Shown one piece after another: positions 7,417 to 10,919 of a DNA stretch of 64,000 nt. A program made the translations under genes and the position numbers. The stretch is taken from contig NZ_JACDOB010000004.1 in NCBI RefSeq assembly GCF_017656375.1, positions 1 to 64,000 on the forward strand. Direction: 5' to 3'. Below the pieces are notes generated by a model that was not told the origin of the DNA, did not search any database, and worked only from the letters and a program-made list of their open reading frames with translations. How positions within the stretch are numbered: the first letter of the stretch is position 1; every line of letters begins with the position of its first letter. The stretch is from Thermovirga sp. (lineage in GTDB: Bacteria > Synergistota > Synergistia > Synergistales > Thermovirgaceae).

Positions 7417-8082
7417 TTATTCTAACAATTTATTTAAATCATCTCGATAGGCAGCTACAATCAGTTTGTCCTCTTTTCCCAAAAGGGTATCTGCTTTAGG
7501 AAGAAACTTTTCAGAACCTCTTTTGACTAATAGGACGACAGCATTATATCGGTTTCTGAATTCCAGCTCCGCCAAAGTCTTGCCTACCATCTCTTCGTAT
7601 GTTCCAATTTCACCGATCATAAAATCTGATCCTGGCAACTCGACGAAGTTGGACAGCGCAGGCTTAGAAATTTGTTCTGCTATCTTAACACCAAAATCCC
7701 TTTCAGGGAAAAACACCCTTTGAGCCCCCATCCTTGCCAATACCCGGGCGTGAATAGTGCTGTTTGCTCTGGCCGCCACATAAGGAACTCCCATCCCAAC
7801 AAGCAAAGTTACCGCCAAAATGCTCGCTTCTATGTTTTCCCCTATGGCAACTATGGCTCCATCCACTTCCTTGGCACCTATCTTTTTTAAAGCCTCCTCG
7901 TCGGTTGCATCCATCTGAACGGCAACATCTACTTTATCTGCAAGTTCATCTATCCTGGCTCTGTTTTTATCTACAGCTATCACGTTCTCCCCAAGCTCTG
8001 CCAATCTCTCACATACAGCCTTTCCAAACCTACCCAAACCCACTACTAAAAATGTCTTCCTCTTTCCAATTTTTTTGGGCAA
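7417..8082 (-). CDS. ktrA: KtrA/TrkA-type potassium channel regulatory subunit
   Basis: 221 residues. The N-terminal RCK Rossmann domain has the nucleotide-binding motif VVGLGRFGKAV followed by an acidic VDKN position. A TrkA-C ligand-binding domain covers about residues 140-218. Single-RCK proteins of this size form the cytosolic octameric ring that gates KtrB-type K+ transporters in response to ATP/ADP (or c-di-AMP in some phyla). The TTG start follows GGAGGGTG and lies 12 bp after ktrB. Its place between ktrB and pheS is unusual for a translation operon. Confidence 0.93.
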   Translation of the reverse strand: MPKKIGKRKTFLVVGLGRFGKAVCERLAELGENVIAVDKNRARIDELADKVDVAVQMDATDEEALKKIGAKEVDGAIVAIGENIEASILAVTLLVGMGVPYVAARANSTIHARVLARMGAQRVFFPERDFGVKIAEQISKPALSNFVELPGSDFMIGEIGTYEEMVGKTLAELEFRNRYNAVVLLVKRGSEKFLPKADTLLGKEDKLIVAAYRDDLNKLLE

Positions 8083-8094
8083 GCTAACACCCTC

Positions 8095-9357
8095 CTAACC
8101 TATAGGCACATTGGTATCAATATATGAAATATGTCTTTGCTCATCCTTTCTCGCAACTCCATAGAAGAAAACAATCAAACCAACCCTGCCCCAAAACATC
8201 AACAAAATCAGTAAGAATTTACCTAAGCCAGAAAGCCCTTGCGTTATTCCGGTCGAAAGGCCAACTGTACCTAAAGCAGAAGTCACCTCAAAAAGAATCT
8301 CTCTAAAAGAATAAGGTTCCATTATTCCTAATATAAAGGAAGAAAGAAATATGGTCACCATATAAACTATAACAAGAGACACGGCTTTTCTTAAGATGCT
8401 ATAAGGTATCCTTCTGCTGGAGAAAATTATGTCTTCCCTTTGCAAAATTTCGCTGTATAAGGACAATAACAAAACCCCAAATGTGGTTGTCTTTATGCCT
8501 CCTCCCGTAGAGCCAGGAGAAGCTCCTATTATCATCAGTAAAATCAACACAAAAGATCCCACGGGAGAAATTTTCCCTATATCCACTGTGTTGAATCCAG
8601 CAGTACGGGCTGAAACAGACTGGAATAAAGCATCCCAAAAACTTTGAAATACGGAGACATCATGTCTCCACACAATGTGCTCTGTCAAAAATAAGGCCAA
8701 GCAACCTATTACTATTAGCAAAAACGTGACAGAAAAGACTAGCTTACAGTAAGGTGACATTCGCTTATTGTGGTATTCTATGCCCACTAACTCCATTAGA
8801 GGAACAAATCCTATCCCGCCCAATATTATAAGCAACATTATAATCAAAGTAATAGATGGGTCTTCGCGAAAAGGCACAAGGTTATCCGGAAAGGTTGAGA
8901 AACCAGCGTTACAAAAAGCGCTTATGCTATGAAAAATGGCGTGGCCAAGGGCATCTAACGGCTCGTAATAATCCAACAGCTCCCCAAAAAGCAACAATGC
9001 TCCAAAAAGCTCTATGGCAAAAGTCATCTTCACTATATGCCCTAACAGCCTTATTACCCCCGAAACTCCATCAAGACCTAGGCTACTTGAAAGGCAGTAC
9101 CTATGTTGAAGACTCACCCGCGAACCACGCAATATAAATAAAGATGTAAAGGCAGTCATAACACCTAGACCGCCAAGCTGCATTAAGACAACAATCAAGC
9201 ACTTAGAGTAAAAACTCAAATCAGTGGCTGTATTTACAACAACCAATCCGGTAACACAAACCGCAGATGTGACAGTAAAAAGAGAATCAATAAAATTCAA
9301 TGGTCTATAACTGTGGTTCAAAATCCAAAGAAGGAGGGTTCCTGACACAATCAACAT
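8095..9357 (-). CDS. ktrB: KtrB/TrkH-type potassium transporter membrane subunit
   Basis: About 420 residues of hydrophobic protein with four pore-loop repeats typical of the SKT superfamily, including VCVTGLVVV and TAGFNTVDIG. It is the membrane pore that works with KtrA in K+ uptake. The ATG at 9357 has a good GGAGGG site. However, conserved coding sequence continues upstream in frame: NPKKFYGKLKPERIIVGGFL aligns with the start of KtrB proteins such as the one from Bacillus subtilis. The only upstream candidate adjoining a ribosome site is an ATA at 9418-9420, overlapping the rplT stop. The start is therefore unresolved. Confidence 0.93.
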   Translation of the reverse strand: MLIVSGTLLLWILNHSYRPLNFIDSLFTVTSAVCVTGLVVVNTATDLSFYSKCLIVVLMQLGGLGVMTAFTSLFILRGSRVSLQHRYCLSSSLGLDGVSGVIRLLGHIVKMTFAIELFGALLLFGELLDYYEPLDALGHAIFHSISAFCNAGFSTFPDNLVPFREDPSITLIIMLLIILGGIGFVPLMELVGIEYHNKRMSPYCKLVFSVTFLLIVIGCLALFLTEHIVWRHDVSVFQSFWDALFQSVSARTAGFNTVDIGKISPVGSFVLILLMIIGASPGSTGGGIKTTTFGVLLLSLYSEILQREDIIFSSRRIPYSILRKAVSLVIVYMVTIFLSSFILGIMEPYSFREILFEVTSALGTVGLSTGITQGLSGLGKFLLILLMFWGRVGLIVFFYGVARKDEQRHISYIDTNVPIG

Positions 9358-9416
9358 CAGAAACCCTCCGACAATAATCCTTTCTGGTTTTAATTTACCG
9401 TAAAACTTTTTGGGAT

Positions 9417-9776
9417 TTATTGCTCAAGCGCCTCCTTGGCCTTCTCCACCATCACTTTGAATGCTTGCATATCATTCACCGCCAAGTCAGCAAGCATCTT
9501 TCTGTTAACTTGAATGCCCGCTCTTTTCAAGCCGTTTATAAAATTACTATAAGAAATATCATTCATGCGGGCCGCTGCGCTAATTCTCGTAACCCATAGC
9601 CTTCTAAAATCTCTTTTCCTTGCTCTTCTGTCCTTGTAGGCACTAGCCAAAGCATGCAAGGACGCTTCTTTTGCTCTTTTATAAGTGTTCTTCTTTCTAC
9701 CCCAAAAACCCTTAGTTATTTTAAAAAGTTTTTTGCGCTTTTTGTCGCTCGCAGATCCGCCCTTCACTCGCGGCAT
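9417..9776 (-). CDS. rplT: 50S ribosomal protein L20
   Basis: 119 residues, the normal L20 length, with the conserved basic N-terminus (KITKGFWGRKKNTYKRAKEA) and the C-terminal RKMLADLAVND region. L20 binds 23S rRNA early in 50S assembly and in several bacteria represses its own operon by binding the mRNA leader. It follows rpmI in the conserved infC-rpmI-rplT order. Its last codons contain an AAGGAGG sequence that may serve as the ribosome site of ktrB. Confidence 0.99.
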   Translation of the reverse strand: MPRVKGGSASDKKRKKLFKITKGFWGRKKNTYKRAKEASLHALASAYKDRRARKRDFRRLWVTRISAAARMNDISYSNFINGLKRAGIQVNRKMLADLAVNDMQAFKVMVEKAKEALEQ

Positions 9777-9838: not shown

Positions 9839-10036
9839 TTATGCGTAAGGGAGCAATTTCTTTACATTTCTCTCCATTGTCGGATTCAAATACCCCTTCT
9901 GCTTCAATCTCCTCAACCTCTTACTGTTCTTTTTTCGCAAAAGGTGACCTCTACCACTCTTCTTATAGCTTAATTTCCCAGTACCTGTCACTCTGAAGCG
10001 TTTCTTAGCTCCTGAGTGAGTCTTCATCTTAGGCAT
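9839..10036 (-). CDS. rpmI: 50S ribosomal protein L35
   Basis: 65 residues from the ATG at 10036, which lies eight bases after GGAGGAGG; the TTG used by the ORF track falls inside this ribosome site and is rejected. The sequence MPKMKTHSGAKKRFRVTGTG is the standard L35 N-terminus. It is a small 23S rRNA-binding protein of the large subunit. It lies between infC and rplT in the conserved operon. Confidence 0.98.
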   Translation of the reverse strand: MPKMKTHSGAKKRFRVTGTGKLSYKKSGRGHLLRKKNSKRLRRLKQKGYLNPTMERNVKKLLPYA

Positions 10037-10087: not shown

Positions 10088-10702
10088 CTATTTATTGTTT
10101 TCTACATTACCCTCATCGTTATTGGCTTTAGAAGGCTCTTTGTTACTGGCTTTAGAAGGCTCTTTCTTCTTGTTTTTCTGACTCTGTGGCAAAGGCGCTA
10201 GCATTGCACGCATGTAACGTCCTTCCATTCTAGGCTCCATCTCTACCTTTCCTACATCCTCACAATCTCTTATAACCCTCTCCAATACTTCCCTACCTTT
10301 ATCCAAGAAGGCCATCTCTCTACCCCTGAAGAAAACAGCAACCTTAACCCTATGTCCAGCAGCCAAGAAATTCCTTATAGCTTTTGTCTTAAACTCGTAA
10401 TCGTGCTGGTCAATTTTCGGGCGCATTTTCATCTCTTTTACAGTTTGTGATTTACTCTTTTTCCTAGCGTCTTTCTCCTTTTTCTGCAACTGATACTTAT
10501 ATTTACCATAATCCAATATCCTACAGACCGGGGGTGAAGCCTGCGGCGCCACTTCCACTAAATCAAGCTCTCTCTCTGCTGCAATATCAAGAGCCTCGCT
10601 CAGCGGGACCACGCCCAGCTTCACACCTTTGTCATCAATTAACAATACCTCTTTTGCTCTTATCTCATTATTGACCCTTGGTTCATCAACTTTTTTTGCT
10701 AT
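10088..10702 (-). CDS. infC: translation initiation factor IF-3, AUA start codon
   Basis: IF-3 binds the 30S subunit, prevents premature 50S joining and proofreads start codons. The ORF track begins at an internal TTG (10645), but the conserved N-terminus VNNEIRAKEVLLIDDKG extends 19 codons upstream to an ATA at 10700-10702, six bases after a perfect GGAGGTGA. No ATG, GTG or TTG exists in that stretch. Rare starts on infC are a known self-regulation device (AUU in E. coli), so ATA is taken as the start, giving 204 residues. The C-terminus carries a non-conserved Lys/Asn/Glu/Ser-rich tail with an eight-residue duplication. Confidence 0.95.
   Translation of the reverse strand: MAKKVDEPRVNNEIRAKEVLLIDDKGVKLGVVPLSEALDIAAERELDLVEVAPQASPPVCRILDYGKYKYQLQKKEKDARKKSKSQTVKEMKMRPKIDQHDYEFKTKAIRNFLAAGHRVKVAVFFRGREMAFLDKGREVLERVIRDCEDVGKVEMEPRMEGRYMRAMLAPLPQSQKNKKKEPSKASNKEPSKANNDEGNVENNK
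10123..10165 (-). repeat. two-copy 19-bp direct repeat in the infC tail
   Basis: The 19-mer TGGCTTTAGAAGGCTCTTT occurs at 10123-10141 and again at 10147-10165. The 24-bp period keeps the reading frame and duplicates KEPSKA in the IF-3 tail. Confidence 0.9.
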
Positions 10703-10919
10703 AGCTGGTCACCTCCAAAATATTATTCAAAAATTATAGCCGGACGCTGAACGCCCGGCTATAATCAAAGACACGATAGCTCTCTCTTAAAGCTACCTGC
10801 ATTTGACCCGGCAACAGCGTTTTGCGTCGACCCAGGTGGGAGAATGGATCCTCCTCTTTTCATATTAATTTTATATATTATTTTATATATTGCACTTTAT
10901 CCTATCCCACTAACTGCTA
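10703..10919 (-). ncRNA. structured 5' leader of the infC-rpmI-rplT operon
   Basis: About 215 nt separate the predicted transcription start from the infC AUA. On the minus strand the leader can form a GGTAGCT/AGCTATC stem and ACCTG/CAGGT pairings, then the strong attenuator hairpin (10733-10765) just upstream of the ribosome site. Leaders of this operon are bound by L20 in Bacillus (Rfam L20 leader), so an autoregulatory attenuator is likely. I could not compare it with a covariance model, so the class is inference. Confidence 0.6.
10729..10765 (-). terminator. Rho-independent attenuator in the infC leader
   Basis: On the minus strand ATTATAGCCGG-GCG pairs with CGT-CCGGCTATAAT around a five-base loop (14 bp including one G-U), followed directly by TTTTT. 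The hairpin ends about ten bases before the infC ribosome site, so it must be read through or prevented from forming for operon expression. Confidence 0.85.

Follow-up and report, generated by a model that had tools for sequence, protein, structure and literature searches.

A probable AUA start of ktrB, in overlap with the end of rplT, in Synergistota, and a conserved RNA hairpin close behind it

In the stretch of DNA analysed here (the window: 64,000 nucleotides of Thermovirga sp., phylum Synergistota, from a draft genome of 1.8 Mb and 85 contigs), the gene ktrB is very probably translated from an AUA codon (9420-9418) that overlaps the stop codon of rplT. A preliminary description, made from the letters of the window, had placed the start there, and the comparison with relatives bears it out: the frame, the first residues, the ATA codon and its Shine-Dalgarno (SD) sequence are kept across 12 genera. 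The proposed start is built on the comparison of its position and frame, of the selection on the codons that follow and of the pairing of a non-AUG codon with a strong SD.

The ktrB locus and its start across the phylum

The gene order in the window is thrS, infC, rpmI, rplT, ktrB, ktrA, pheS, pheT (Table 1). On the minus strand, ktrB reads TGA(9426-9424) GCA ATA(9420-9418) AAT CCC AAA AAG TTT TAC ... CTG ATG(9357-9355). As had been described, the frame is bounded by the TGA and contains no ATG, GTG or TTG between this codon and 9357; the ATA shares bases with the rplT TAA (9419-9417) as ATAA, and AAGGAGG (9437-9431) lies inside rplT with a 10-nt spacer. The product matches solved KtrB structures in sequence searches (8k1s, 1.6e-76; 8k1s/4j7c, E 1e-76), and the top Foldseek matches of its AlphaFold model are all KtrB (7zpr, 8k1t; TMq 0.82-0.87). 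Its partner is the adjacent, short, single-unit KtrA of 221 aa, which covers about half of the TrkA profiles and is not a double TrkA. The KtrAB systems of B. subtilis and Vibrio are of the same protein family and fold, those of Synergistota differing by the rplT operon and the proposed non-AUG start. Among the 74 genes of the window that are conserved in the same-genus genome G001, only ktrB and infC have coding conservation upstream of their first canonical start, the remaining flagged ORFs having been dismissed by eye (plausible canonical start at the conserved N-terminus, overlap with a neighbouring gene or antisense artefact).

Table 1. Features of the ktrB region, in positions of the window
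Feature	Position	Strand	Remarks
ktrB CDS, 441 aa counted from ATA	8095..9420	minus	KtrB by sequence and fold
Probable ktrB start ATA, in overlap with the rplT stop	9418..9420	minus	ATA and GCA the sole candidates behind the in-frame TGA; ATA/ATC kept in 25 loci, 12 genera
rplT stop TAA, two bases in common with ATA	9417..9419	minus	
Shine-Dalgarno AAGGAGG within rplT, 10 nt before ATA	9431..9437	minus	Duplex -10.5 kcal/mol
In-frame TGA bounding the ktrB frame	9424..9426	minus	
ATG at residue 22, first canonical codon but probably no start	9355..9357	minus	Mid first TM helix; only G000, G001, G004
RNA hairpin, ktrB codons 18-30, terminator- or pause-like	9333..9369	minus	Core 9366-9336, codons 19-29
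rplT (L20)	9417..9776	minus	TIGR01032
rpmI (L35)	9839..10036	minus	Identity from position and sequence, without profile scan
ktrA, 221 aa, single-unit Ktr-type regulator, TTG start	7417..8082	minus	
infC (IF-3)	10088..10702	minus	TIGR00168; conservation in relatives begins at the ATA
ATA start codon of infC	10700..10702	minus	TGA CCA GCT ATA GCA; without canonical start
infC Shine-Dalgarno GGAGGTGA	10709..10716	minus	

We searched 188 genomes of the phylum and examined 75 ktrB loci. In 25 of them, from 12 genera and 7 families, the KtrB N-terminus lacks a canonical start; the homologous position, 20 codons ahead of residue 22 (21 codons in the genus of the window), is occupied by ATA (24) or ATC (1). 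These are the AUH-only loci. Canonical starters carry ATG, GTG or TTG directly before the motif RTYSSL, 18 codons ahead of residue 22, and begin 2-3 codons downstream of the ATA position, at a homologous place. Further downstream, some AUH-only loci contain GTG, TTG or ATG codons, scattered within the conserved N-terminus or the first transmembrane helix (TM1), with none in common, and the alignment with the KtrB of G001 (76% identity) begins right at the ATA. Of the 25 AUH-only loci, 16 have an ATAA or ATAG in which the ATA and the rplT stop overlap; in nine, ktrB is detached from rplT and lies behind an intergenic region, with ATA (8) or ATC (1). Beyond the 25, G040 has ATC, and G017 and G085 have ATA, each with a TTG two codons later. 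On the ktrB tree, the AUH and canonical states changed only 2-4 times.

One distant ktrB of the phylum (L105 of G103) has a probable CUG start. A clade of relocated ktrB genes (L045, L047, L052, L054, L059-L061, L063, L066, L069) spans families f1, f3 and f8 and has a response-regulator gene upstream in most cases, which suggests horizontal transfer. Most other phyla have canonical ktrB starts. Nine Atribacterota genomes (L210, L211, L215-L221), with ktrB away from rplT and no nearby canonical start, carry ATA or ATT at the N-terminus, and their sister group (60% identity) starts at GTG; in two genomes of a spirochaete order (L243, L244), ktrB lies directly behind rplT and a shared ATT is the only start candidate. 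The rplT-ktrB adjacency is also found in Omnitrophota (L143, L159, L161-L163), with canonical starts.

Strong Shine-Dalgarno sequences, a weak codon and the alternatives

Measured as duplex energy with CCUCCUUUCU, the SD averages -10.6 kcal/mol in the 25 AUH-only loci (worst -7.0; 25/25 at this value or lower) versus -3.7 in 40 canonical loci. Compared by genus (12 vs 20), the Mann-Whitney p is 6e-6, related species not being independent; a test on tree pairs has only 2-3 contrasts and no power, nearly all pairings lying in the expected direction, and joint changes of SD and start codon number only 2-3 on the tree, which does not suffice for a corrected test. Where the TTG is able to serve, in G017 and G085, the SD for the ATA is gone. 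Such a pattern would be expected if translation does begin at the AUA and output is kept down in either of two ways, by a weak codon with a strong SD or by a normal codon with a weak SD. The anti-SD CCTCCTTTCT is present in G001 and G116; the same search, for the exact pattern only, did not find it in draft G000, nor in G014 and G034.

We lean towards the reading that the weak ktrB start is a selected control. Less probable, though credible, is that the AUA start is real but has no regulatory role, the codon having only resulted from the 4-nt overlap with rplT, a gene bound to end in TAA or TAG. Where the two genes are linked, one base serves both as the middle of the rplT stop and as the third position of the ktrB start, and this stop is TAA or TAG, never TGA, in every linked genome, canonical ktrB starters included, even though TGA makes up 18/74 of the stops in the window; ATGA may thus be disallowed, and the ATA of linked loci may partly reflect the stop codon. 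An argument for selection from the absence of ATGA is weakened by the same observation. However, the nine detached loci, in which no overlapping gene was seen and nothing was seen to block a change to ATG, have kept ATA or ATC. In the ten loci of the detached clade, moreover, the third base of the start is A in eight, C in two and G in none, while only 10/85 four-fold columns of this clade lack G and only 1/85 has at least 8 A. These third bases favour selection for a weak start, the clade counting as one lineage.

It is very improbable that ktrB starts at ATG 9357, either alone or as a second, shorter form, with the upstream codons untranslated or rarely used. The preliminary description had credited this ATG with a good ribosome site and allowed for two forms; the first part stands, since GGAGGG (9369-9364) lies 6 nt ahead, and the same ATG occurs in G001 and G004, while the second form is disfavoured. 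The codon is common to three genomes only (G000, G001, G004), the other families having Ser, Ala, Leu or Gly there; TM1 spans residues 12-34 in the AlphaFold model, so that a start at residue 22, mid-helix, would halve it and drop invariant residues; and both the ATG and its SD are buried in a 16-pair stem (9369-9333, by pattern scan). Its place mid-TM1 and in a hairpin makes a second form unlikely. The check named in the preliminary description, dN/dS and residue conservation upstream of the ATG, came out in favour of the longer protein: pooled dN/dS is 0.085 (11 pairs) over the 19-20 codons from the start to residue 22, versus 0.113 in the next 60 codons, and E13, G19, F20 and L21 are invariant in an alignment of 23 KtrB sequences, which indicates purifying selection on the codons before the ATG.

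Practically negligible is a KtrB made as a fusion to RplT by -1 frameshifting, since ktrB does lie in the -1 frame, directly overlapping rplT, but the TGA two codons before the ATA blocks this frame in the window, no slippery site is evident and the same ATA or ATC stands in nine loci without rplT upstream. Equally negligible is a canonical start hidden by sequencing error, conceivable in a draft of 85 contigs and foreseen in the preliminary description as what could overturn the AUA start, but refuted by the same ATA in independent genomes of many families, near-complete G001, G034 and G023 included.

A hairpin of the rplT operon within the ktrB coding region

A stable, G+C-rich hairpin under selection at the RNA level occupies ktrB codons 19-29, about 50 nt after rplT: its 13-pair form, GGGUUCCU...AGGA(A/G)CCC, is found in 57/57 rplT-linked loci, with at least 10 pairs in each. 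Paired cells amount to 95.9% in the hairpin versus 45-57% when it is slid, double changes number 36 versus 12.4 +/- 2.8 in shuffles, and in a gene-wide consensus-fold scan of 26 genera the hairpin reaches -23 kcal/mol, windows not touching it never falling below -1.2. Codon choice is limited accordingly: Gly19 is nearly always GGG, Gly27 only GGA or GGG, codon 26 ends in a purine, and Leu21 is CTA only where the middle base of codon 26 is U. A DNA palindrome in place of an RNA hairpin is unlikely because G-U pairs are frequent and the four-fold sites are limited to A/G. Two further ideas were rejected: the length of a small ORF from an ATG formed at codon 31/32 after the hairpin is not conserved (3 to 188 codons), and the folds that might mask the SD in detached loci differ and are not conserved.

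A covariance model of the hairpin also matches where ktrB is not behind rplT, although not in several g7 genomes. In 15 genomes without ktrB behind rplT, the hairpin is noncoding, 37-82 nt past the rplT stop (regions L280-L296), and precedes pheS wherever the next gene was read; 12 of these genomes were picked via model hits, which brings some selection bias, and G033, G107 and G116 were without a hit there. Mean fold energy is -23.9 at rplT in these 15 genomes, -20.5 in linked ktrB and -13.0 in relocated ktrB, for folded lengths that differ slightly, and genomes with both have a full-strength hairpin at rplT and a decayed one in the relocated gene. In G006, a relic of the ktrB 5' end lies behind rplT after an ATAG overlap (60% identity to KtrB over 30 aa); its frame is lost soon after, and the hairpin is retained. 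Because noncoding copies are kept without ktrB, copies in relocated ktrB have decayed and the G006 relic has kept its own, the hairpin is a part of the rplT operon, and the ktrB coding sequence runs across it. Nor is it specific to the AUA, since it is equally present in canonical-start lineages.

As to its function, the hairpin may serve the rplT operon as a terminator, an attenuator or a pause element. The tail, although U-rich, has an imperfect U-tract, of the TTCTGCTATGG type in linked loci, with TTTTTCTTTG or CTTTTTTATG only in some unlinked ones. Most linked loci have [A/T]UGG about 9-11 nt past the stem; in almost all, codon 31 ends in A or T and is followed by the Trp codon TGG, an arrangement that may belong to the hairpin tail or to a pause signal. 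The stable stem and short U-rich tract recall the pauses of his and trp leaders and intrinsic attenuators (for the background on pausing, PMC6336406). Unlike those leaders, the ktrB hairpin lies within a coding region in linked loci, its function is a candidate one and it matched no Rfam family at the gathering threshold.

IF-3, known systems and the proposed control

That ktrB would be a second AUA start in an operon encoding IF-3 had also been proposed, and the AUA of infC proves to be common almost throughout the phylum: among the Synergistota examined, nearly all have ATA as the infC start, and two genera of f5 and distant G103 have ATT. In E. coli, IF-3 is established to discriminate against AUH start codons. 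In S. aureus, the AUA starts of infC, ccpN and citZ have been mapped by Ribo-Ret, and non-canonical start sites yield about 10-30% of AUG in reporters (PMC13009471). By analogy with E. coli discrimination and S. aureus output, sensitivity of ktrB to IF-3 is likely in kind; that IF-3 is a physiological input to ktrB is a more tentative idea, possible but not the one we would back. Upstream of infC, on the minus strand, a hairpin AGCCGGGCG..CGTCCGGCT is followed by T-rich DNA (10760-10738) and another lies at 10797-10775; these hairpins (10738-10797) are a possible leader attenuator of the operon. A search with Rfam found no riboswitch or leader upstream.

The ktrB start resembles several known systems and differs from each: (i) AUGA stop-start overlaps are a form of translational coupling, and ktrB has the same four-base overlap with the SD in the upstream gene; its overlap, in contrast, is AUAA or AUAG, and the AUA persists once the overlap is lost. 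(ii) The AUU start of E. coli pcnB limits expression; pcnB, however, is a different gene without overlap with the infC operon. (iii) infC of E. coli and S. aureus (AUU/AUA) shares with ktrB an AUH start and a strong SD and is described (PMC13009471, citing Butler 1986) as subject to IF-3 discrimination and autoregulation; yet infC encodes IF-3 itself, whereas ktrB encodes an unrelated transporter in the same operon. (iv) ccpN (AUA) and cvfC1 (AUU) of S. aureus and B. subtilis likewise combine a conserved start with a strong, extended SD and have low output; they are other genes, and the passages on them in PMC13009471 do not place them in an IF-3 operon or over a stop codon. A literature search found no paper on AUA or AUU starts of ktrB.

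In the control that we propose, the strong SD close to the 3' end of rplT (AAGGAGG) would position the 30S subunit, and fMet-tRNA would start on the AUA overlapping the rplT stop. This codon would cut initiation well below that of AUG and would make it responsive to IF-3, a factor that selects against codons of this kind and whose gene, upstream, has an AUA start of its own. More speculatively, the hairpin about 50 nt after rplT might act as a terminator- or pause-like element of the operon; as ribosomes starting at ktrB might cover it, weak initiation might also limit transcription into ktrAB and pheST. That the rplT-ktrB junction is a translation-gated attenuator, in which a deliberately weak start, whether AUA with a strong SD or a canonical codon with a weak one, decides if ribosomes hold the hairpin open and polymerase enters ktrAB and pheST, we consider quite unlikely; if true, IF-3 level and ribosome state would set potassium uptake.

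The literature contains very few natural AUA starts, and gene callers limited to ATG, GTG and TTG will cut such KtrB proteins short inside TM1. The persistence of a weak start in 12 genera, even after relocation, offers a good natural test of selection on non-AUG starts. The hairpin, which has no Rfam match and is under both coding and RNA constraint, is a candidate for a regulatory RNA. With IF-3 encoded in the ktrB operon, a link between the state of translation and potassium supply becomes testable. The weak AUA, the strong SD and the conserved hairpin nearby suggest that potassium uptake is tightly controlled, possibly with sensitivity to IF-3.
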